64,000 nucleotides of DNA from an uncultured Bacilli bacterium. GTDB taxonomy: Bacteria > Bacillota_I > Bacilli_A > RF39 > UBA660. The notes under the pieces were generated by a model. The model made no database searches. It was not told where the DNA came from and saw only the letters and a list, made by a program, of their open reading frames with translations. Positions 41,867-54,326 of the stretch are shown here, piece after piece. Location of the stretch: NCBI GenBank assembly GCA_944358375.1, contig CALVQT010000001.1, positions 124,001 to 188,000 of the forward strand, given 5' to 3'. The number at the start of each line of letters is the position of its first letter. Within the stretch, counting starts at the first letter, position 1. The position numbers and the translations under genes are program-made.

Positions 41867-43210
41867 TTGAATATTTTAGTAGTCAATCCGCCTAACAAAC
41901 CATTTACAAATAAGTCTATACTTGCAGAACCAATCGATGTATTACAAATAGCAACGATTGTTAAAGAAAAATATAGTGATGTAAGTGTAATAGATATGGA
42001 TGTTAATAAAATGAATAATAATTTAAACAATTATTTAAAAGATGATAATATTATTATTTTTGTATTTGATTATCAATTACCTCTACATACAAGTGATACT
42101 GTTTCTAATATATTTGAGATTATAAAAAACACTAATAAAAAATCAAAATATATTATTATAGGAAAAACTAGTGCTTATTATTATGATGAATTTTTAAATA
42201 ATGGTTTTGATGTAGTTATAAATGGCATAGCAGATGAAACTATTATTAATGTTATTAATAGTATTATTCAAAATAAAGATTTATCTTTAATTCCTAATAT
42301 TATTATAAAAAAAGATAATAATATAATACTAACTGAAAAAATCAAAATAGCTAATAATTTCAATTTGATTAATTACCCTGACCGAAGTTTAGTTAATATT
42401 GAAAAATATATGGACACAAGAACTATGATTACATCAAGAGGATGTATTGGCAAGTGTAATTTTTGTACAACACCAACTTTCTTTGGTAAATGGATTGGTA
42501 AAGAAGCTAATAAAGTAGTTGATGAAATTGAATATTTGATAAGTAATTTTAACACTAAGAAAATAATTTTTCTAGATGATAATATGACTGTAGATAAAAA
42601 AAGAATGTTTGAAATTTGTAACGAAATAGAAAAAAGAAATATTAAATGTTTATTTGGATGTTTAAGTAGTATTTCTTGTTATGATAAATATATGTTTGAA
42701 AAAATGTATTTAGTAGGATTTAGATGGGTTCATTTTGGTATTGAAACAGGAAGTAAAAGAATCCTAAAATTAATGAATAAACAAATGAATTTAAATTATA
42801 TTAGACAAGTTATTAAAGAAGTGAAAGATATGGGCTATAGAGTAAGAAATAGTATTATTCTAGATTATCCAAGTTCTACTAAAGAAGATATTATCGCTAC
42901 AAGAAATTTAATTAATATTTTACAGCCACATGAACTTAGAATGCATTATTTAGCATATAGAGTTGGAACACCAATATTTGAAGAAAATAAAAATATTAAA
43001 AATAAAACACAATATATTCACAGTAATCATCCTAATGTTGAAAATCCTAAATTAACTGAAGAAATAAATTTATTAATAAATGATTTAAAGAATAATGGTT
43101 ATATTTTAATATTTGATGATGTTAATTGGAATAAATATAATTTGTTAAATAAAGAGACAAAATTTGCTTCATTTATTCCAATAAAATATGGGATGTGTTG
43201 GTATGAATAA
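41867..43210 (+). CDS. Cobalamin-binding-type radical SAM enzyme
   Basis: 447 residues with a TTG start 8 bases after a full AAGGAGGT. The N-terminal ~130 residues have the B12-binding Rossmann pattern (MNILVVNPPNKP, then SVIDMDV, IIFVFDYQ). The radical SAM domain has SRGCIGKCNFC (CX3CX2C) near residue 190 and IIFLDDNMTVD near 227, typical of B12-type radical SAM proteins. Such enzymes methylate unactivated carbons or rearrange substrates. It is first in a six-gene operon and overlaps the next gene by eight bases. Substrate unknown; probably the small protein or a metabolite of this locus. Confidence 0.85.
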   Translation: MNILVVNPPNKPFTNKSILAEPIDVLQIATIVKEKYSDVSVIDMDVNKMNNNLNNYLKDDNIIIFVFDYQLPLHTSDTVSNIFEIIKNTNKKSKYIIIGKTSAYYYDEFLNNGFDVVINGIADETIINVINSIIQNKDLSLIPNIIIKKDNNIILTEKIKIANNFNLINYPDRSLVNIEKYMDTRTMITSRGCIGKCNFCTTPTFFGKWIGKEANKVVDEIEYLISNFNTKKIIFLDDNMTVDKKRMFEICNEIEKRNIKCLFGCLSSISCYDKYMFEKMYLVGFRWVHFGIETGSKRILKLMNKQMNLNYIRQVIKEVKDMGYRVRNSIILDYPSSTKEDIIATRNLINILQPHELRMHYLAYRVGTPIFEENKNIKNKTQYIHSNHPNVENPKLTEEINLLINDLKNNGYILIFDDVNWNKYNLLNKETKFASFIPIKYGMCWYE

Positions 43211-44657
43211 ATTAATAGGGATTACAGGTGGAATGTCATCTGGTAAAACAACTTTATGTAAAAAATTATTAAAGTTAAATCCTAATTGTATATATATAGA
43301 TGTTGATAATTTTAGAAGAAGTTTATATAAAAATAACGAATATATAGAAAAATTAAAATCAAAAATAATAGAATTAAAACAATATAAAGAAATTGATTCG
43401 TTTATTTTAAATAAATATATTTATTATGATAAAAAAAGCATGGATAAATATAAAGAAATTTTATATAATTTTTTATTCAAATATTTAAATGAATTTAACA
43501 ACAAAACAATATTAGTTGATTGGGCATTAATTATAAATGATAATTTAATTGATAAGTTTAATAAAATTGTATATTTAGATATTAATGAAGATATAAGATT
43601 ATCTAGATTATATAATAGTGATTTATCAAAAGAAGAAATATTAAGAAGATTTGAATTACAAAAAATAAACAATATAAAGAAATATGAGAATAACAACTTT
43701 ATGGTAGTAAGTGAAGAAAATATGAGTGTTGATGAAATAAATGATTTTATAAATTCTATGGAGTGTAAATTTACATTACCAGAAGATGGTGGAAAAGCAA
43801 TATGGGAAATCACTCATAATTGTAATTATGGTTGCTCTTATTGTATATTCTCTTGTGATAAAAAGAAAGTTGATGGCGAGTTGACAACTAAAGAATGTTT
43901 GCATGTTATAGATGAATTAGTAAAAAATGGTTTTAAATATTTGAAAATTACAGGGGGAGAACCATTTATTAGAGAAGATTTAATAGAAATATTAGAATAT
44001 GCTAGTAAAAAATTAATTGTTGATGTATCTACTAATGCATCACTTATAAATGATGAAATAGTTAATAAATTAAATAAGATAAATTTAAAAATGATTCATG
44101 TAAGTTTAGATGGAAATAAAGAAGAACACGAAGCTGTAAGAGGAAAACTAACTTATGAAAGAACCATTAATGGTTTAAAATCATTAAAGCATTCAAAGAA
44201 TAAAGTAAGAATTGGTTCTGTAATTCATGCTAAGAATGAAAATAATTTAGAAAATCTAGTTAAAGATTCGATTAATATTGGTGCTAATGAAATAATATTT
44301 TCAATAATGGAACCAGTTGATGGACAAAGTAAATTACTTGTAAAAACAATTTCAAATGAAGAACTTATTAAAACTATTGATTATATAAAAGAAAAATACC
44401 AAAACAATATAATTGTTAATTATAATTTTGGCAAACAACCTACATTTGTTAAGAAGTGCCCTGCAGGAGATAAATTTTTATATATTAACAATATGGGGTT
44501 TGTTAGTCCTTGTCCTTGGGTATATGAAAATAATAAGAACTGTATTTCAAAGATTTCATTAAGAGATAATAATTTAAAAAATGTTCTAAAAGATAAGAAT
44601 ATATATTTATTTTTAAATTCAAAATTAAAAGGAGTTTGTTATGGAAAGATTCAGTAG
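43203..44657 (+). CDS. Fusion of a CoaE-like P-loop kinase and a radical SAM/SPASM-type enzyme
   Basis: 484 residues from ATG 43203 (in-frame ATG 43188 has no ribosome site). Residues 1-~190 are a P-loop kinase: Walker A GITGGMSSGKTTL and a Asp-rich YIDVDNFRR segment, closest in pattern to dephospho-CoA or nucleoside kinases. Residues ~200-484 are radical SAM with ITHNCNYGCSYC (CX3CX2C) near 207, KITGGEPFIRED, and STNASLIN. A C-terminal extension with CPAGDKFLYINNMGFVSPCP and further Cys suggests a SPASM/twitch-type auxiliary cluster. I do not recognise this domain combination from described enzymes. The product overlaps the next gene by 17 bases. Confidence 0.8.
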   Translation: MNKLIGITGGMSSGKTTLCKKLLKLNPNCIYIDVDNFRRSLYKNNEYIEKLKSKIIELKQYKEIDSFILNKYIYYDKKSMDKYKEILYNFLFKYLNEFNNKTILVDWALIINDNLIDKFNKIVYLDINEDIRLSRLYNSDLSKEEILRRFELQKINNIKKYENNNFMVVSEENMSVDEINDFINSMECKFTLPEDGGKAIWEITHNCNYGCSYCIFSCDKKKVDGELTTKECLHVIDELVKNGFKYLKITGGEPFIREDLIEILEYASKKLIVDVSTNASLINDEIVNKLNKINLKMIHVSLDGNKEEHEAVRGKLTYERTINGLKSLKHSKNKVRIGSVIHAKNENNLENLVKDSINIGANEIIFSIMEPVDGQSKLLVKTISNEELIKTIDYIKEKYQNNIIVNYNFGKQPTFVKKCPAGDKFLYINNMGFVSPCPWVYENNKNCISKISLRDNNLKNVLKDKNIYLFLNSKLKGVCYGKIQ

Positions 44658-45456
44658 TATATATCTTTTTACTACCGAAAATATTGCTGGATATATGAAT
44701 GAACTTGATTTTACTAATAAAAAAATAATCACAGTAACAGGATCATCAGATCATATTATTAATGCAATTTTAAAAGGGTGCACAGATATAACAACATTCG
44801 ATATAAATCCCCTTACTAAATATTATATGGATTTAAAACTATCAGCAATTAAAGAATTATCATATAGTGAATTTTTAAATTTCATATTATATGATACAGA
44901 AAAATCTTTTAATTATGAATTAATAAAAAAATTAAATATGGATAGTGAAAGTAAAGCATTTTGGTTAAATGAACTTTCTAAAAATGAATATAATGGATTA
45001 AAAATGAAATATTCAGCTTTATTTAATTTAAAATACTTCGATTTTCAAAATAAAATCAATTGCAATTTATATCTAAATGAAGAAAATTATGATATAATCA
45101 AAAATAGATTAGCAATAGTCAAAATAAAGTTTGTAAAATCAAATTTGAAAGATTTAAAACTTAATAAAAACTATGATTTTATGTTTCTATCTAATATATC
45201 AGATTATATCAACACTATTTATAAGGATAACTATTTAATTAATTACAAAAAATTAATATTCAAATTTTCAAAGAAAGTAAAAGTACTATACTTTGCTTAT
45301 ATATATGATATAAAAAATAAAGAAAAAAGAAGTATGATAGATGATATAAAAAATGTTAAAGAAATATTTGGAGATATAAAAATAAAGAAGTTTAAAAGTG
45401 CTTTACTTAATGTAAAAATAAATACAGAAGATGCTGTATTGATAAAGGAGGAGTAA
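44641..45456 (+). CDS. DUF3419-like SAM-dependent enzyme (aminocarboxypropyl-transferase-like)
   Basis: 271 residues. The N-terminal pattern KIITVTGSSDHIINAILKG, TTFDINPLTKYYMDLKL and IKELSYSEFLNFIL follows DUF3419/BtaA-type proteins, which use S-adenosylmethionine to transfer a 3-amino-3-carboxypropyl group. The usual GSGDQ reads GSSDH here, so activity may differ. It sits between a radical SAM enzyme and the Ser/Glu-rich protein, and probably modifies that protein or a pathway intermediate. Family call moderate, function inferred. Confidence 0.6.
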   Translation: MERFSSIYLFTTENIAGYMNELDFTNKKIITVTGSSDHIINAILKGCTDITTFDINPLTKYYMDLKLSAIKELSYSEFLNFILYDTEKSFNYELIKKLNMDSESKAFWLNELSKNEYNGLKMKYSALFNLKYFDFQNKINCNLYLNEENYDIIKNRLAIVKIKFVKSNLKDLKLNKNYDFMFLSNISDYINTIYKDNYLINYKKLIFKFSKKVKVLYFAYIYDIKNKEKRSMIDDIKNVKEIFGDIKIKKFKSALLNVKINTEDAVLIKEE

Positions 45457-45459
45457 ATT

Positions 45460-45939
45460 ATGGAAAGTAATTATGCAAGCAGCGAAAGTAATTATGAATA
45501 TGGGGAATATTTTGGAAGAAGTTATGGGAGATTTCCTTCAGAGAGTGATTTTTCTAGTGAAAGTCACAATACTTATGTACCAACATCTTCATTTAGCAAT
45601 GAAAGTGCTTTAGAAAGTAGATCTTCATTTTGTTCATCAGAAAGCAGAAGCATTTCAACTATACCCGCTAAAACTCAAAGTAGTAAGAAATATAACTCTT
45701 TAGATGATGTTGATAAGTTAATTGAAAAATTAGAATTTTCTATGGAAGGTGCTAATTTAACTAGTGATAGGGCAAATCAGATTTTAGCACAAAGAAAACA
45801 AAAAATAGATGAATTAAAAAAGTTGGTTGCAGAAGCAAGAAAAGCTGAAGAAGAAGAAAGAATGATAAAACAATTAGAGCAAGAAAATAGAGAGCTTGAT
45901 GATTTAATTGATAGTTTAAATAAAGGATTTTATAGATAA
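45460..45939 (+). CDS. Ser/Glu/Tyr-rich small protein with coiled-coil tail; candidate peptide substrate or carrier
   Basis: 159 residues with AAAGGAGGAG before the ATG, the strongest ribosome site of the operon. Residues 1-~70 are low complexity: Ser, Glu, Tyr and Phe with repeated SES (SSESNYEYG, FPSESDFSSESHN, SSESRS) and a single Cys. Residues ~80-155 form a charged coiled coil (RKQKIDELKKLVAEARKAE) ending in GFYR. It has no catalytic motif. Surrounded by radical SAM, ATP-grasp, DUF3419-like and methyltransferase genes, it may be the substrate or carrier protein they modify. It could also be a structural protein. Confidence 0.6.
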   Translation: MESNYASSESNYEYGEYFGRSYGRFPSESDFSSESHNTYVPTSSFSNESALESRSSFCSSESRSISTIPAKTQSSKKYNSLDDVDKLIEKLEFSMEGANLTSDRANQILAQRKQKIDELKKLVAEARKAEEEERMIKQLEQENRELDDLIDSLNKGFYR

Positions 45940-46979
45940 TGGAAAACATATATAAAGGATTACACTCTAATCAAAAAATTTTTATATATGAAATGCTTAA
46001 AAGAGGCATAAATGTAGGTATAATTGATGCTGAAAAAGAAATTATTAAAGCATCATATAATGGTCATGATGAATTAATATGTGATAGGGATTCATCAATA
46101 ATGCCATATAATGTATCTATTTTAGCAGGAGATAAGGGATTTACTAAAAAAAATTTAATGATGCATGGAATATCCGTACCAGTTGGAGAAACATTCATTG
46201 CAAGAGACATTGATTATATCAAAAAAGCGTTTAAAGTTTTAAATTGTCCAGTTGTAATCAAACCAGTATTTGGTTCTCATGGATTTGATGTGTATACTGA
46301 TTTGCAAACAGAAGAGGAAGTTGTAGATGCTATAAACAATATTATTATGCACCGTGGAGATTTAACTAAGATAATTATTGAAGAATACTATAAAGCTAAT
46401 GAGTATAGAGTATTTGTTACTAAAAGGGGGGATTATGCAGTATTATTTCGTGATCCATCACATATTTATGGAGATGGGATAAATACTATTGAACATTTAA
46501 TTAAAAAAGAAAATTATGATAGAATGAATCCAAGAACTAATGCGTTATGTGAAATACTTATAGATGATGAGTTAGTAAAATATTTATCAAAAAATGGATT
46601 AACATTGCAAAGCATTCCTCAAAATGGAGAAAAAATTTATTTAAGAGCAAATTCTAATGTCGCAATGGGTGGGATATGTGAAGATTATACTGATAGAGTT
46701 CATCCAAGTGTTATAGAAATTGGATTAGAAGTTTTAAAAGCATTTCCAGGATTACCTTATGTGGGTATTGATTTTATGACTAATTCTATTGAACAAAAAC
46801 AAACTGATGATAGTTATAGAATAATTGAAATAAATACAGTCCCAGGTATTCACATGCATTTTAGACCTGCAATTGGAAAATCTAGAAACATTGCTAAATA
46901 TATTGTTGATATGATTTATCCAGAAACGATAGATAATAAAGAGGAAGTATTAGATGAAGAACCTATTAAAAGACTCTAA
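45939..46979 (+). CDS. ATP-grasp ligase of the cyanophycin synthetase / GshF type
   Basis: 346 residues. VPVGETFIARD, CPVVIKPVFGSHGFDV, ANEYRVFVTKRGDYAV, YGDGINTIEHLI, GLTLQSIPQNGEKIYLRANS, GGICEDYTDRVHP and YRIIEINTVPGIHMHF follow the ATP-grasp domain of cyanophycin synthetase and the C-terminal half of GshF. These enzymes ligate an amino acid to a carboxylate through an acyl phosphate. Substrates here are unknown; the Glu-rich protein encoded just upstream (TAATG overlap) is an obvious candidate acceptor. Compared with CphA it lacks the Mur-ligase half. Confidence 0.82.
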   Translation: MENIYKGLHSNQKIFIYEMLKRGINVGIIDAEKEIIKASYNGHDELICDRDSSIMPYNVSILAGDKGFTKKNLMMHGISVPVGETFIARDIDYIKKAFKVLNCPVVIKPVFGSHGFDVYTDLQTEEEVVDAINNIIMHRGDLTKIIIEEYYKANEYRVFVTKRGDYAVLFRDPSHIYGDGINTIEHLIKKENYDRMNPRTNALCEILIDDELVKYLSKNGLTLQSIPQNGEKIYLRANSNVAMGGICEDYTDRVHPSVIEIGLEVLKAFPGLPYVGIDFMTNSIEQKQTDDSYRIIEINTVPGIHMHFRPAIGKSRNIAKYIVDMIYPETIDNKEEVLDEEPIKRL

Positions 46980-47637
46980 AGCATATTATGAAGATAATGA
47001 TTATTATGAAATATTTAGCATAGCAGAAGATGCTGAAAATAAAGTTGCTAACTATTTAGATAATATTTCAAAGAAAAAAATAGTATTAGATGCAGGTTGT
47101 GGGACAGGCAAGTTTTTAAGAGTGTTAGAAGATAATGCTGAAAGATATATTGGTATAGATTTATCTAAAAATCAGTTAGAAAAGGCAAAATTAAAATCAA
47201 TAAATAATAATTCAAAATTCATATGTTCTAATTTATCAAAAATACCATTAGAAGATAATTCAGTTGATTTAGTTGTATCTACTTGGGTATTAGGAACAAT
47301 AACAAATATAGAAGAAAGAAATAATGTTTTAAACGAACTAAAAAGGATATTAAAACAAAATGGTCAAATAATTCTTGTTGAAAATGCTGAAAATAGTGAA
47401 TTTGAAAAAGTCAGAGGTAGAGATAAAGACAGCAGAACAACAGATTATAATGATTGGATTTTGAATAATGAGTTTATTTTATATAATACGATTAATACCT
47501 ATTTTGAATTTAAATCATTAGATCAAGCGAAAAAATGTTTTAAAATAATATATGGTAACGAAATTGCTTCTAGAATAGTAAATAATAAAATAAAACATAA
47601 AATTAATATCTATAAATATAGTAAGATGAAGCGATGA
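46954..47637 (+). CDS. Class I SAM-dependent methyltransferase
   Basis: 227 residues. Motif I VLDAGCGTGKFLRVL near residue 46, IGIDLSKNQLEKAK, and VDLVVSTWVLGTI mark a Methyltransf_11 type enzyme. It overlaps the ATP-grasp gene by 26 bases and ends the operon, with its stop inside a terminator stem. It could methylate the peptide or small-molecule product. Confidence 0.82.
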   Translation: MKNLLKDSKAYYEDNDYYEIFSIAEDAENKVANYLDNISKKKIVLDAGCGTGKFLRVLEDNAERYIGIDLSKNQLEKAKLKSINNNSKFICSNLSKIPLEDNSVDLVVSTWVLGTITNIEERNNVLNELKRILKQNGQIILVENAENSEFEKVRGRDKDSRTTDYNDWILNNEFILYNTINTYFEFKSLDQAKKCFKIIYGNEIASRIVNNKIKHKINIYKYSKMKR

Positions 47638-47654
47638 AAAACATTGCTTTTTTA
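47629..47654 (+). terminator. Terminator of operon I
   Basis: AAGCGATG (47629-47636) pairs with CATTGCTT (47642-47649), one G-U pair, then T residues. Confidence 0.75.
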
Positions 47655-49331: not shown

Positions 49332-50408
49332 ATGATAGAATATTTTAAAAAAATTGCAGTACAACATGGATTATCTTTAGAAAATGTGTTATCTATAGCA
49401 TTAAATAGGTATGGTATTATTGTAGATAATGTTAAAGATAATAGAATAAGATTTAATCTTAAACTATTAGGCAGTGATAAAAGTACATATTTTGCGGTTT
49501 GTGTGAATACTTACGAACAGTCTCCTTTTACTTTGAAAGATAATATTTTATATTTAGAGAATATACCAGTTGGCACTATTGAAGGACTTGAAAAAGACAC
49601 ATGTTTATCTACATATTTTAGAAATAATAAAAAGGCAATTACATTTAATTCGAATTCAAGAAGTAAATGTGTTGGATGCAAATTCTGTGGAACTTATAGT
49701 TTGACAGATGAAGATGTATATGATTTTTCTAGTAAAGAAAATATTGTTGAATACTTCACAAATTTATTAAGAGACAATGGTATAGAATCTATGAAAAAAA
49801 TTGAAAATGTAACTTTATGTACTGGATGTTTTGAAAATGAAGATAAATTAATTGAACATTTAATGACAGTAAATGAAGCTTTTAAATCAATGGGATATAA
49901 TGGTAGTTTGAATTATATAGGATCTCAATTAAGAGATTTTGATAAAATTAAAAGAATAAAAGAAGAAATAAATAATTTTGGTATATATTTAACAATTGAA
50001 AAATTTCTCGATAGAGAAAAATATATGAAACCCGAAAAATCAAGTTTAACATTACCAAAAGCAAAAGAATTATTAGAATATAGTTCATCACTTAATATAA
50101 CAGCAACCTTCTTATATATATTAGGTTTAGAAGATTTAGAAACTATAAAATATTATTTTAATTATTTTAAAGATAGTATTAATAAATTTCCTATAGTTCA
50201 AGTTTTTCAAAATTATAATGCTTTTCAGGAAAATTATAGATGCGAAGATGCTAAAAATATAGAGTATTATATAAAAGCTAGAGAAATAATAGATGAAATA
50301 TTTAAAGGAAAGCAATTGAATTTTAAATTGTGGGAGAATTTTAGAAGTCTATATTTTGATGATGATAAGGAGGAAAGAAAATGCCAAAGGAAGATACTAA
50401 CATTATAG
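49332..50408 (+). CDS. Radical SAM-like protein with a CX2CX2C cluster motif
   Basis: 358 residues with AGGAGGAAAG before the ATG. RSKCVGCKFCGTYS at about residues 110-123 gives Cys 113, 116 and 119 in CX2CX2C spacing instead of the usual CX3CX2C. TLCTGCFENEDKLIEHL occupies the place of the GGE-type motif, and later segments (LNYIGSQLRD, YLTIEKFLDREKYM, FLYILGLEDLE) fit the alternating strands and helices of a radical SAM barrel. Substrate unknown. It overlaps the next gene by 28 bases, so the two are coupled. Confidence 0.7.
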   Translation: MIEYFKKIAVQHGLSLENVLSIALNRYGIIVDNVKDNRIRFNLKLLGSDKSTYFAVCVNTYEQSPFTLKDNILYLENIPVGTIEGLEKDTCLSTYFRNNKKAITFNSNSRSKCVGCKFCGTYSLTDEDVYDFSSKENIVEYFTNLLRDNGIESMKKIENVTLCTGCFENEDKLIEHLMTVNEAFKSMGYNGSLNYIGSQLRDFDKIKRIKEEINNFGIYLTIEKFLDREKYMKPEKSSLTLPKAKELLEYSSSLNITATFLYILGLEDLETIKYYFNYFKDSINKFPIVQVFQNYNAFQENYRCEDAKNIEYYIKAREIIDEIFKGKQLNFKLWENFRSLYFDDDKEERKCQRKILTL

Positions 50409-52360
50409 AAAATTACATTAAAACAGCTAATTTAATATTAATTAACTTGATGTATTTTAACCGGTTTACAAATTATAAACAAGTATCAAAAGAGAATTTA
50501 AAAGAATATAATCCTGGGCATTTAGGATCTAGTTTGTCAATAAATTTTATTTTAGCTAATTTAAATTATTTTTTTAAAGAAAAAGGACTAAAGAGTCAAC
50601 TAATTATTGGAACTGGACATAGCGGTGCTTCTTTGATAACGAACAAGTGGCTTGATGGAACATTAGAAAAGAAAGATATTAATTTATCAAGAAATATAGA
50701 AGGATTAAATAATTTAATAAATAATTTTGGTTTAAACATTCGTTCTGAAATTAATCCACAATACCCTCAAACTATTTATAATGGAGGAGAATTAGGATAT
50801 TCATTAGGTATCGCGTATGGATATTCAATTGATTGTAATACTGATATTATACCTTGTATTATTGGAGATGGTGAAGCAGAAACAGGAACTTTATCTGCCT
50901 CTTGGCAATTAAATAAAATAATTGATTCATCTTCAAAAGTATTACCAATAATTAATCTTAATGGACTAAAAATGAGTTCTAATTCATTTTTATCAAATCA
51001 GACAGATGAAGAATTGTATAAATATTTTGAATCATTTGGATATGACGTTAATATTGTAGATATAAGAACGTGTTCTACTCTTTCAGAAAGTATCGACAAA
51101 TTTCAAAGAACTTTAAATAAAATTATGGATGATAAGCATCCTTTAATAATATTAAAATCATTTAAGGGATATACACTTCCTAGTGTTGATGGAATAGAAT
51201 TTGAAAATTCAGTAAACTCACATAAAAATCCACTTCAAAATTATGATAAAAGTAAAAAAATTGATATACTTAGACAATTTTTACTAAAGTATGATACTGA
51301 TTTTTTTGACAATGATGGCTTTTTGCTAGAATATTTTAAAAAAATTGAGCCAATAGATTCACAAAGAAAATTAGTAAATATAAATAAAATTAATATTTTG
51401 GAATTTAGTAAATTAGCTCAAGACAAGAAATTAGAGGAATATTTAAAAAAATATTTTAATGAAAATGAAGGGGTTATTTTTTCACCAGATGAAATTTATT
51501 CAAATAAATTAGCAGGAGTGAGTGGATATGCTATTGAAATATTAAATGAAAATTTATTACAAGCTTTATATCAGGGATATATTTTAGCAGGAAACCAAGG
51601 ATTTTATATTGCATATGAAGGGTTTATGTCTATTATAAGTAGTATGGTTGATCAATATTATAAATCACTAAAAGAAAGCAATAAATTAAAAGATAAAATT
51701 GATAGAAATTCAATGAATTATATATTAACATCAACTTGTTTCGAAAATACATATTCACATCAAAATCCTAATTTTGTTAATAATTTATTAGGAAAAGATG
51801 ATCATTATTATGATATTTTGTTTCCAAAAGATAAAAATAATTTATTAAAATGTTTGGAATATATAGCAAATACTAAAAATCAAATTAATGTTATAACAGT
51901 ATCAAAAAGACATAGAAAAATTTATCAAACTATTGAAGATGCGAATATAAGAATGGATACATTAATTGAATGTGATAATCCGGATATTATTTTATGTGCT
52001 ACTGGAGACTATATGCTGGATGTAATATTTGAAGTTGGTAAGCATTTGATAAATAATGGTGTTAAAGTTAAAATTAACTATATTACTAATCCTAAAATAT
52101 TAGATCTAAGTAGTAAAAATGCTTTAAATGATATTGAATTTAAAAGATATTTTAATAAAGATGTACCAACATTATATTTGTATTCCGGATATGCATATAT
52201 TATAAAATCATTATTATATGATAGGAATTGTTCATTTAATATTAGAGGATATGAAGATGGGATAGCGGGTTTTGGGAATTTGTTTAATAATTTAAGTGCT
52301 AATGGTTTATCTATAGATGATATAATAATAATAGCGGAGAATATGATTAAAAAAAAATAA
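50381..52360 (+). CDS. Phosphoketolase-like thiamine-diphosphate enzyme
   Basis: 659 residues, shorter than the ~790-825 of true xylulose-5-phosphate/fructose-6-phosphate phosphoketolases. Clear family motifs: NPGHLGSSLSINF (His47), IIGTGHSG (His80), GGELGYSLGIAYG, ThDP/Mg site IIGDGEAETGTLSASW, VLPIINLNGLKM, SHKNPL, and YSHQNPNF. The catalytic segment SIHEGGELGY reads TIYNGGELGY, that is, Tyr133 replaces a conserved His, and HDHNG before SHQ is missing. It may act on a different sugar or keto substrate. AAGGAGGAAAG site; overlaps the radical SAM gene. Confidence 0.8.
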   Translation: MPKEDTNIIENYIKTANLILINLMYFNRFTNYKQVSKENLKEYNPGHLGSSLSINFILANLNYFFKEKGLKSQLIIGTGHSGASLITNKWLDGTLEKKDINLSRNIEGLNNLINNFGLNIRSEINPQYPQTIYNGGELGYSLGIAYGYSIDCNTDIIPCIIGDGEAETGTLSASWQLNKIIDSSSKVLPIINLNGLKMSSNSFLSNQTDEELYKYFESFGYDVNIVDIRTCSTLSESIDKFQRTLNKIMDDKHPLIILKSFKGYTLPSVDGIEFENSVNSHKNPLQNYDKSKKIDILRQFLLKYDTDFFDNDGFLLEYFKKIEPIDSQRKLVNINKINILEFSKLAQDKKLEEYLKKYFNENEGVIFSPDEIYSNKLAGVSGYAIEILNENLLQALYQGYILAGNQGFYIAYEGFMSIISSMVDQYYKSLKESNKLKDKIDRNSMNYILTSTCFENTYSHQNPNFVNNLLGKDDHYYDILFPKDKNNLLKCLEYIANTKNQINVITVSKRHRKIYQTIEDANIRMDTLIECDNPDIILCATGDYMLDVIFEVGKHLINNGVKVKINYITNPKILDLSSKNALNDIEFKRYFNKDVPTLYLYSGYAYIIKSLLYDRNCSFNIRGYEDGIAGFGNLFNNLSANGLSIDDIIIIAENMIKKK

Positions 52361-52385
52361 TAAAGTATTAAGGAGGAAATAAAAA

Positions 52386-53489
52386 ATGAATAATTATGAG
52401 TTTTGGGAAAATTATTTAAAGGAATTAAAAAATGAAATGAAAAAATTATGTAAAGAAAAAGAAAAACTACATATTGATTTACACATTCATTCTAATTATA
52501 GTGCAGATGGTAAACAAAGCATCAAACAAATTTTACAAAGTACTAAAAATTTAGGGTTTGATATTATTGCAATTACTGATCATGATACTCTTGAAGCTTA
52601 TAATGAAATTTATGAATATGTTAAATCAGGCTTTACAAAGCCATTAATAGTACCTGGTATTGAATTTACTACTGATAATAGAAATTATGGTAATCAGTGT
52701 CATATATTACAATTGTTTGTTAATCCAAAAGATGAGGAAATACAAAAAAATGTTGATATAAATTATAAAGCAATGTTTAATAGAAGTAAAATTCAATTTA
52801 AAAGATTAAATGAAAATTTAGCAATAAAAGAAATTACTAAAAAGAATAAAATAAAATATTCATATGATGAATATTTAAAATATTTAACTGATAATCAATT
52901 AGTTCCAGAATATGATACTTTGTGTTTTTATTTAATTGATAAGTTTGAAGAAAAAAATATAACAACTTTTGATATATTAGATTTATTAGAAAAATATAAT
53001 GAAAAAGATTGTTATGAAGATAGGAAAATATATAAAAAAAATAGATATAAAAAACTTCGCGAAAAATATACTAAAGGTAATAGTGATTATAGTTCCCGCT
53101 TTTTACTATCAATGTTAGCAGTTAGAGAAGTTGATGATGATTGGTGGGATAAACCTAGTAGTGGTAGTTTATCTGTTAATTCATATGGACAGTTAAAAAT
53201 TGATGAAATAAATAAGAAGTTTTGTACAATATGGGCTCATCCAACTGAATCTAAATTAGAATTAGTAAGTGATACAATAAGGAAAGAAAAGAATATTATT
53301 GGATTAGAAAAAAATATAAGGAATGAATATAAGGACATAAATAACTTTGATAAAGTATTAAAAAATAATAATTTATTAATGATAATAGGTTCAGATAGTC
53401 ATGATAATACTTTACAATTTTATGAAGATATGCAGTTTTACTCAATTGATTCAAATGAAATATTGAAATTAATTAAATATATAATTTAG
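52386..53489 (+). CDS. PHP-domain phosphoesterase (long form)
   Basis: 367 residues. DLHIHSNYSADGKQS near residue 32, IIAITDHDTLEAY near 60, VPGIEFTTD near 92, and late IWAHPTESK and IIGSDSHDN carry the His/Asp metal ligands of the PHP family. A ~150-residue insertion in the middle is charged and unassigned. It is in operon II, 25 bases after the phosphoketolase-like gene, and probably removes a phosphate from a pathway intermediate. Confidence 0.78.
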   Translation: MNNYEFWENYLKELKNEMKKLCKEKEKLHIDLHIHSNYSADGKQSIKQILQSTKNLGFDIIAITDHDTLEAYNEIYEYVKSGFTKPLIVPGIEFTTDNRNYGNQCHILQLFVNPKDEEIQKNVDINYKAMFNRSKIQFKRLNENLAIKEITKKNKIKYSYDEYLKYLTDNQLVPEYDTLCFYLIDKFEEKNITTFDILDLLEKYNEKDCYEDRKIYKKNRYKKLREKYTKGNSDYSSRFLLSMLAVREVDDDWWDKPSSGSLSVNSYGQLKIDEINKKFCTIWAHPTESKLELVSDTIRKEKNIIGLEKNIRNEYKDINNFDKVLKNNNLLMIIGSDSHDNTLQFYEDMQFYSIDSNEILKLIKYII

Positions 53490-53504
53490 TAGAGGTAAGT
53501 TTAT

Positions 53505-54326
53505 ATGAAAAAAATAGATTTACATATGCATTCAAATTTATCTGATGGATTATTAACACCAGAGATGTTAGTACAAAAAGCAGTTGCTAGTGGATGTTCT
53601 TTAATATCAATTACTGATCATGATTTTGTTCAGGACTATTTAGAATTAGAACAAAAATATCATATACCAATAATTTCAGGTGTTGAATTTAATTCATCAG
53701 TTACTAATATGCATTTATTAGGATATGGTATGCAAAAGTTAGATAAAATTAATTATGTAATGGATAAGTTAAAGAAATACAATGAGAAAGTATGTTATGA
53801 AGTTATAGAAATGATGCAAAAAGATGGATATGATATATCAAAAGAACAAATTAATGATTATTTAACAAGCATTGGTCTTAAATATGATACTTTAGATAAA
53901 AGAAAAATAGTTATGTACTTAATGTATAAAGGTTATTCAAATGGTATATTAGAAACATATCAAACATTAATTGGAGTTAAACAAAAATATTATATACCAA
54001 ATAAAAAAATAAGTCCTATAGATATTATTGAACTTATTGATTCAAGTGGAGGAATAGTGGTTTTAGCTCATCCTAATACATTGAATTTATCAAATGATGA
54101 TTTATTAATAAAAGTAAAAGGGCTTATGAATTATGGCTTATCAGGAATAGAAATTATTAATGGTAAAATGAATTTGACTAAAATTTATGAATATGATAGT
54201 ATTGCAAGAAAATTAGGAATAATACAAACTGTTGGTTCTGATTTTCATATTCCAAGTGATCAATTAGGTATAGATGTAAGTGAAAAATTAAGTGAAGATT
54301 TTTGCAAACGATTGATATTAAAATAG
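53505..54326 (+). CDS. PHP-domain phosphoesterase (short form)
   Basis: 273 residues, resembling YciV/Trph-type nucleoside 3',5'-bisphosphate phosphatases: KIDLHMHSNLSDG at the N-terminus, LISITDHDFVQDY, PIISGVEFNSS, VVLAHPNTL and TVGSDFHIP. All PHP metal ligands seem present. It ends operon II. A housekeeping role in pAp removal is possible, but the operon context suggests a pathway-specific phosphatase. Confidence 0.8.
   Translation: MKKIDLHMHSNLSDGLLTPEMLVQKAVASGCSLISITDHDFVQDYLELEQKYHIPIISGVEFNSSVTNMHLLGYGMQKLDKINYVMDKLKKYNEKVCYEVIEMMQKDGYDISKEQINDYLTSIGLKYDTLDKRKIVMYLMYKGYSNGILETYQTLIGVKQKYYIPNKKISPIDIIELIDSSGGIVVLAHPNTLNLSNDDLLIKVKGLMNYGLSGIEIINGKMNLTKIYEYDSIARKLGIIQTVGSDFHIPSDQLGIDVSEKLSEDFCKRLILK

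Follow-up and report, generated by a model that had tools for sequence, protein, structure and literature searches.

A candidate RiPP-like protein-modification operon from an uncultured Bacilli bacterium

Closest described systems and the layout of the operon

The described systems closest to the operon analyzed here each share only part of it. Graspetides (microviridin, plesiocin, and fuscimiditide) have a Ser/Glu-site precursor encoded beside an ATP-grasp gene. BtaA, a SAM:diacylglycerol 3-amino-3-carboxypropyl transferase, uses a glycerol hydroxyl as the acceptor; we take DUF3419 to be the family of BtaA, and none of its members is known to us to act on a peptide. The 3-amino-3-carboxypropyl transfer by BtaA is described in PMC10491745. 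MgmA is a cobalamin-dependent radical SAM enzyme that C-methylates a glutamine in methyl-coenzyme M reductase and thus targets a protein side chain (PMC11796369). In graspetide loci, radical SAM enzymes of the SPASM sort have been reported, as have UbiE-like methyltransferases (PMC8939145), and the fuscimiditide ligase, a RiPP enzyme, remains active after its recognition sequence has been transferred to the opposite end (PMC13003496).

The operon lies in the window, by which we mean the whole 64,000-nucleotide stretch of DNA that was analyzed. Its six open reading frames (ORFs), A to F, occupy positions 41867-47637 of the plus strand (Table 1). The tight six-gene arrangement proposed in the earlier note was reproduced in strand and junctions, with overlaps of 8 (A/B), 17 (B/C), 1 (D/E), and 26 (E/F) bases and a 3-base gap between C and D, when B is taken to start at ATG 43203, the ORF start of its homolog in locus L001; the longest B ORF begins at 43188. 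The TTG start codon of A follows a GGAGGT sequence, and TTG is also used by the L001 homolog. One terminator-like hairpin is present, as the single terminator of the earlier note would have it, but it is weak evidence alone, since shuffled sequences give 0.5 by chance. Riboswitch control was considered and rejected: no Rfam family matched the 64-kb window at its gathering score. Operon A-F itself lacks genes for a protease or an exporter and any known leader-binding domain, in agreement with the earlier statement that it lacks a transporter.

Table 1. Positions of the operon features in the window
Feature	Description	Position	Strand
A	Predicted cobalamin-type (class B) radical SAM protein of 447 aa; TTG start codon	41867..43210	+
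B	Fusion of a CoaE-like P-loop kinase and a SPASM/twitch-sort radical SAM enzyme, 484 aa	43203..44657	+
C	Transferase-like protein of 271 aa, DUF3419 (BtaA) type; methyltransferase fold predicted	44641..45456	+
D	Proposed precursor/substrate protein, 159 aa	45460..45939	+
D tail (approximate)	Repeated E-S-[N/D/H/A/R], proposed modification sites	45460..45684	+
D helical domain (approximate)	KKYNSLDDVDKLIEKLE..., proposed to be recognized by the enzymes	45685..45936	+
E	Cyanophycin synthetase/GshAB-type ATP-grasp ligase, ATP-grasp part only, 346 aa	45939..46979	+
F	Accessory class I SAM methyltransferase of 227 aa	46954..47637	+
Hairpin	Terminator-like, operon end	47628..47650	+

Family and structure matches of the enzymes

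Family searches upheld the enzyme types that had been named from the sequence: a radical SAM enzyme, putatively of the B12 type (A), a kinase-radical SAM fusion (B), a DUF3419-like, aminocarboxypropyl-transferase-like protein (C), a CphA/GshF-like ATP-grasp ligase (E), and a methyltransferase (F). Protein A matched Radical_SAM at 59 bits and the B12-binding family at 15.7 bits, the latter below the Pfam cut-off of 32.1, and its C193xxxC197xxC200 motif is invariant in the aligned homologs. Its best solved relative by both sequence and fold is MgmA (PDB 9ccb, E value of 2.3e-15), which ranked first in Foldseek (TM scores of 0.55/0.59) with a predicted model of middling confidence, 75.1; the same model also finds TsrM, OxsB, and CysS, so that a B12-binding Rossmann domain ahead of the radical SAM domain is a candidate feature of A. 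However, the identity to MgmA is 18% in the alignment, and the scores of AprD4, TsrM, and OxsB are close behind. Protein B combines a CoaE match (44 bits) with a Radical_SAM match (86 bits) and falls below the cut-off of every NCBIfam family among its best 25 of 70. The best solved relatives of its second half (6efn, E value of 1.4e-15; 6c8v, E value of 2.1e-10) are the SPASM radical SAM RiPP maturases SkfB and PqqE, from which B differs by the CoaE-like kinase in front. We also considered viperin and rejected it, as the NCBIfam viperin score of B (60 bits) is exceeded by radical SAM families for heme and RiPPs, which reach 114 bits.

Protein C scored 56.4 bits against DUF3419 (cut-off of 28.2), and its relatives likewise score over the cut-off. 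The match is confined to residues 6-114 and covers positions 10-121 of the 385-position profile; we read this part as a putative SAM site, and C is a candidate SAM 3-amino-3-carboxypropyl transferase. While C shares with BtaA the DUF3419 match and the predicted fold, it differs from the BtaA family in its length and in matching the profile only partially. Protein E matched the RimK-like family at 31.5 bits, and its best NCBIfam family is cyanophycin synthetase, at 235 bits and below the cut-off of 850. Residues 62-332 align with CphA (E value of 3e-48) and residues 8-329 with GshAB (E value of 7e-41), but the second halves of both are missing from E, which adjoins a precursor-like gene. The second half of CphA is a Mur-ligase; the search of E as a full cyanophycin synthetase returned ATP-grasp matches and no Mur-ligase domain. 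Protein F matched Methyltransf_11 at 84 bits.

Protein D and the recurrence of the gene set

Protein D had been described in the earlier note as a small low-complexity protein. This holds for its tails but not for the whole protein: its homologs (113 distinct proteins, 107 from the homolog search and 6 from loci) have a conserved helical domain in addition to low-complexity tails, and the repeated Glu-Ser-Arg (ESR) motifs of the tails, often arranged as doublets, can lie on either side of this domain. ESR occurs 4.5 times per protein in this set, compared to 0.30 in shuffled sequences. In 86 nonredundant D proteins, ESR was counted 395 times and the other five letter orders 2 to 32 times; 394 of the ESR copies are in the tails, where 200 shuffles gave a mean of 20.4 and a maximum of 33, and a single copy is in the helical domain. 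A partner ESR is found 4 to 7 residues away for 240 of the 395 copies. Among the 113 homologs, the tail precedes the helical domain in 64, flanks it on both sides in 43, and follows it in 4, while 2 have no ESR; homolog P0186 has none, although its contig is as long as that of a B gene, which counts against the substrate reading. In the window, D has an N-terminal tail of Glu-Ser-X repeats followed by the helical domain, and only two of these sites are exactly ESR, the remaining ones being ESN, ESD, ESH, and ESA. No Pfam family matched the window D over its cut-off, and other D members match weakly.

As a sequence pattern only, this arrangement resembles a multicore RiPP precursor whose recognition domain can change place, the repeated core being separable from the recognition part; the helical domain would be that recognition part. 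Another mark of RiPP loci, a gene for a short putative substrate next to those of modifying enzymes, is also found here, while a dedicated protease or exporter, which is common but not obligatory, is absent from the operon. With most homologs at 120-200 aa and the longest at 231 aa, D is large for a precursor, which counts against its being a substrate. The DNA of nine loci bears on the origin of the repeats: the motif Ser is encoded by AGY at 32 of 41 sites and by TCN at 9, the latter confined to L025, L026, and L027, and AGY is commoner at the motif than among all Ser codons of these loci (148/254). Copying of repeat units may therefore explain part of the uniformity of ESR.

The gene order A-F is identical in five loci from other Bacillota metagenome-assembled genomes (L001, L002, L003, L024, and L027), although in L027 B is split over two overlapping frames. 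L005 has A-E; F is missing after E, and no match to it was found at an E value of 1e-10 anywhere in that genome. L025 retains B-F with a broken A, and L026 begins inside B at a contig edge. In the nine loci that include the stretch (the window, L001, L002, L003, L005, and L024 to L027), D lies between C and E. Matches to B, D, and E fall in the same five of 384 shared non-center genomes, all from one taxonomic order. G031, where B matched at an E value of 2.6e-51 with seven stops in the stretch, was excluded from this count because the genes are generic radical SAM genes without the kinase, D, or E. The flanks are little shared: only LysR regulators (window, L002, and L005) and ABC ATPases (L006, L025, and L027) occur in as many as 3 of the 11 loci, and no family occurs in more. 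Since the set recurs in other loci, it is more than a chance grouping, and the concern raised at the outset that homologs might never co-occur elsewhere was answered by their co-occurrence, in the same order, in independent loci. Directly downstream of the operon, ABC genes are present in L025 and L027 and not in the remaining loci; the L025 copy resembles a C39 peptidase-ABC gene. A link to type VII secretion was considered and dropped, as related EssC-like genes are downstream in only 2 of 11 loci (L001 and L005).

The family libraries, solved structures, and literature searched showed no described pathway with this set, as had been supposed. In open PMC texts, no paper was found for DUF3419 with radical SAM or for an amino-group carrier protein with ATP-grasp, and none on a system joining aminocarboxypropyl and RiPP, as judged from the listing. 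A phage or plasmid origin was not favored by the searches: two peptide patterns detected no relative of E in viral contigs, the 17 phage records matching B include none that covers 80% of the query, and the 127 plasmid records matching E are all below 60% identity (among 20 listed, 18 are annotated as cphA or gshAB, one as ngg, and one is unannotated). For anti-phage defense, PADLOC gave partial single-protein matches only, and none for C and E.

Proposed chemistry and alternative explanations

We consider it probable that these genes make up a self-contained system for RiPP-like protein modification in which D is the substrate and its ESR sites are modified. A, B, C, E, and usually F would act on these sites. 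The helical domain would dock the enzymes, while the flexible tails would present the ESR sites, often in pairs. Each chemical assignment is drawn from distant homology and is put forward conditionally. C could transfer the 3-amino-3-carboxypropyl group of SAM to the Ser oxygen, as BtaA does to its hydroxyl; A could place a methyl group on an unactivated Glu carbon, as MgmA does on protein glutamine; B could phosphorylate Ser or a cofactor and then form a radical bond or carry out an elimination nearby; E could activate the Glu side chain carboxylate with ATP and join it to an amine or hydroxyl; and F could methylate the new amine or carboxylate. That this exact scheme holds as a whole is unlikely. 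With no protease or exporter in the operon or conserved beside it, the product may remain intracellular as a modified protein, or host enzymes may release it. The operon is a candidate new RiPP class; it is similarly doubtful that it would represent a new class of modification in the full sense, combining alkylation of the motif Ser with the SAM aminocarboxypropyl group by a BtaA-type enzyme, Glu C-methylation by a cobalamin radical enzyme, a phosphate serving the kinase-radical SAM fusion as handle or leaving group, and repeated rings closed by a cyanophycin-type ligase, on a protein that remains intracellular.

Amino-group carrier proteins such as LysW work with LysX, and it is conceivable that D is likewise a carrier, with E loading a small molecule onto its Glu side chains, the other enzymes building on it, and the product then being released. 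An ATP-grasp ligase, a kinase, and several tailoring enzymes surround a Glu-rich small protein, as such a role would have it, the operon has no exporter, and E does match archaeal LysX in NCBIfam (E value of 1.3e-10; 40.9 bits, far below the cut-off of 275.6) and the lysine biosynthesis enzyme 1uc8 in the PDB (E value of 0.014). However, the resemblance of E to cyanophycin synthetase and GshAB is far stronger, the operon shows no release enzyme, and the Ser-Arg following Glu is also kept, although an anchor consisting of Glu alone could do without it. A helical domain with ESR tails of changing place also makes D more likely to be a substrate than a small-molecule carrier, and we regard the carrier role as quite improbable. 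We give still less credence to the notion that D is a structural or regulatory enzyme subunit in an operon making a free small molecule: its helical domain has weak coiled-coil-like library matches, but a subunit would not need the ESR tails that 111 of 113 homologs carry on either side of that domain.

A special case of the substrate reading is that E joins Ser and Glu side chains of ESR doublets by graspetide-like ester or amide crosslinks and that the other enzymes decorate the product. Ser/Glu sites are repeated beside an ATP-grasp gene, with one Glu and one Ser per motif, and radical SAM enzymes of the SPASM sort as well as UbiE-like methyltransferases are reported for graspetide loci (PMC8939145). 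On the other hand, crosslinking leaves the conservation of Arg unexplained, and the operon differs from graspetide loci in the additional enzyme types A, B, and C, in the lack of an exporter or peptidase, in the conserved helical domain of D, and in E being closer to another ATP-grasp branch. Graspetide-synthetase entries are part of the NCBIfam and PDB libraries, but the 20 NCBIfam matches of E (to an E value of 0.1) and its 16 PDB matches (to an E value of 10) include no graspetide ligase. We give the crosslinking case only a slim chance, on a par with the carrier.

If the protein-modification reading of the operon is true, the system would be a RiPP-like class with a DUF3419 transferase, a kinase-radical SAM fusion, and a CphA-type ligase, which, to our knowledge, are not known from peptide modification. 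It would also provide a natural example of a recognition domain that functions on whichever side of the core it stands, a property so far shown by engineering in fuscimiditide. Since the ESR motif is short, repeated, and well defined, the chemistry is directly testable in E. coli. The operon would then show what uncultured small-genome Bacillota may make.

The operon and its recurrence

The six ORFs of the operon, A to F, lie where the earlier note had placed them, and the junctions that it described, overlaps of 8, 17, 1 and 26 bases plus one 3-base gap, are exact when the ATG at 43203 is taken as the start of B. Its domain assignments were likewise upheld by Pfam and NCBIfam searches.

Features of the window operon, of related loci (L) and of their surroundings
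Location	Coordinates	Strand	Feature
Window, A		+	Radical SAM; B12-binding match weak
Window, B		+	CoaE-like kinase and radical SAM
Window, C		+	DUF3419
Window, D		+	Small protein; no family above cut-off in Pfam or NCBIfam
Window, E		+	ATP-grasp; top NCBIfam match cyanophycin synthetase, 235 bits
Window, F		+	Class I methyltransferase
Window	47628-47650		Terminator-like hairpin (chance expectation 0.5)
Window	49332-54326		Protein with below-cut-off radical SAM match, adjoining short phosphoketolase-like gene (659 aa); PHP-like genes (by eye) next
L001	7297-7878		D homolog with extra module
L001	12554-16110		143-aa ORF with Cys- and Gly-rich end, then two radical SAM genes; preceding gene methyltransferase-like by eye
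L001	17292-18914		EssC-like gene; FHA below cut-off
L005	11833-16656		EssC-like gene; FHA and FtsK/SpoIIIE above cut-off
L006	9881-11132		Start of A fused into second half of E
L006	12578-13525		Additional DUF3419 protein; identity to C, 32-36%
L025	12847-14961 (reverse-strand numbering)	-	ABC-type gene; C39 peptidase-ABC transporter look, by eye
L027	11961-14461 (reverse-strand numbering)	-	ABC-type gene

A search of genome contigs using E as the query yielded six loci, and whole-genome searches a further four; the relatives are Bacillota metagenome-assembled genomes, and the ten genomes with operon loci have listed sizes of 1.0-1.7 Mb. The order A-F is identical in L001, L002 and L003. L024 also has A-F, as does L027, where B occupies two overlapping frames, through either a genuine split or a frameshift introduced during assembly. 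L025 holds B-F and a broken A, L026 begins inside B, and L004 is cut by a contig end that leaves part of E and F visible. L006, where F has an in-frame stop, is an operon relic. L005 contains A-E; F is absent after E and has no match at an E value of 1e-10 elsewhere in that genome, and F is therefore accessory.

The order of G003 was searched with B and D and that of G001 with E, in samples of 385 genomes each that have 384 in common and differ in their centre. B matched 7 genomes, E 6 and D 6. Apart from the centres and, for B, G031, excluded as holding generic radical SAM genes only, all three match the same five genomes (G002, G054, G187, G207 and G240). Of the ten genomes carrying operon loci, 8 have a single D match; the other two, G004 and G006, contain cut or relic operons and have no match. 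In a class-wide sample of 395 genomes, B matched three: G005 (the centre), G054 and G031.

Among 7,995 scored metagenomic candidates, 493 are relatives of B at E values up to 1e-3, and all 120 listed of these carry both CoaE and radical SAM Pfam domains. For 20 of 107 D relatives, the longest contig is exactly the same size as for one of the listed B relatives (jittered sizes gave a mean of 0.45 and a maximum of 3), which is indirect evidence that they share a contig. The gene set is not rare in metagenomes.

Surroundings of the operon

Among 136 flanking ORFs at 11 loci, no family occurs at more than three loci, and only LysR regulators and ABC ATPases reach three. Since the flanks differ between loci, the gene set behaves as a stand-alone cassette.

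Individual flanks hold further features. L025 and L027 are the only loci in which the operon is immediately followed by ABC-type genes. The ORFs at L001:12554-16110 may form a separate RiPP-like cluster. The EssC-like genes of L001 and L005 are related to each other, and that of L005 is followed by a small YukD-like-looking protein; a type VII secretion locus is perhaps present near 2 of the 11 operons. The second DUF3419 protein in L006 is near the relic, away from any intact ESR operon. The phosphoketolase-like neighborhood in the window has no counterpart in the other flanks.

Repeats and tail position in D

We compiled 113 distinct D proteins, 107 metagenomic relatives and 6 from the loci, some cut at contig ends. 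Their alignments contain a helical domain (YNSLDDIDKLIERLE..., then a second helix), with helices deduced from sequence, and a tail of variable length and sequence in which Glu-Ser-Arg (ESR) is kept. The motif occurs on average 4.5 times per protein, compared with 0.30 in whole-protein shuffles, and is absent in only two, P0186 and the truncated-looking P0214; it is preceded by Ser at 321 and Gly at 113 of 510 sites. When redundancy is reduced to leave 86 proteins (5-mer containment at most 0.6), the count of ESR is 395, as against 2 for ERS, 18 for SER, 32 for SRE, 14 for RES and 4 for RSE. The tails hold 394 (shuffle mean, 20.4; maximum, 33 in 200) and the helical domain 1, and 240 of the 395 sites have a partner at 4-7 residues. 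The window D is a thin family member, with two exact ESR and ESN, ESD, ESH or ESA at its remaining sites.

Across nine loci, the motif Ser is encoded by AGY at 32 and by TCN at 9 of 41 sites; overall, 148 of 254 Ser codons are AGY. Selection on the motif at the protein level is seen in L025, L026 and L027, since only there do both codon blocks encode the motif Ser; in the other six loci, it is indistinguishable from copying of a repeat unit. In 17 of the 113 homologs, an extra module of ~35 residues (YEDWLKTDPWIARGGLSSASEMHQAYQEW) lies at the junction of tail and helical domain; it is doubled in L025 and had no Pfam match above cut-off in five proteins scanned.

Of the 113 proteins, 64 carry ESR N-terminal to the helical domain, 43 carry it on both sides and 4 carry it C-terminal to the domain; 2 have no ESR. 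We placed tail position, with ESH counted together with ESR, on a B tree of 29 rows (27 different) comprising nine loci and those 20 of the 120 listed relatives that are paired with D by longest-contig size. It requires 6 changes, with 3 the least possible and 10 in shuffles, on a tree of modest support (7 of 24 inner branches well supported; long branches in three rows). The tail moves relative to the helical domain. An engineered form of fuscimiditide is reported to have a recognition sequence that is still functional once relocated to the opposite end (PMC13003496); the recognition part there is active from either end, and in D tail position varies naturally.

Reading of the gene set

By architecture, the operon is RiPP-like, and the set A-F matched nothing in the family libraries, solved structures or literature searched. 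D is constantly positioned between C and E. This fixed placement points to D as the likely substrate, as do its repeated ESR motif, its separable helical domain and the kinship of A with an enzyme that acts on a protein (MgmA, a glutamine C-methylase). D could instead be the carrier of a carrier-protein pathway, which we consider improbable.

Our preferred reading, that D is modified, comes at several levels of detail. A specific chemistry at the ESR sites, in which C would aminocarboxypropylate Ser, A would C-methylate Glu, E would activate the Glu carboxylate and B and F would perform further steps, is doubtful, and there is a slighter chance that the system works as a graspetide. The general form, modification of D in its ESR tails by the operon's enzymes, is probably correct; its likelihood overlaps that of the graspetide, since the latter is a sub-case of it.
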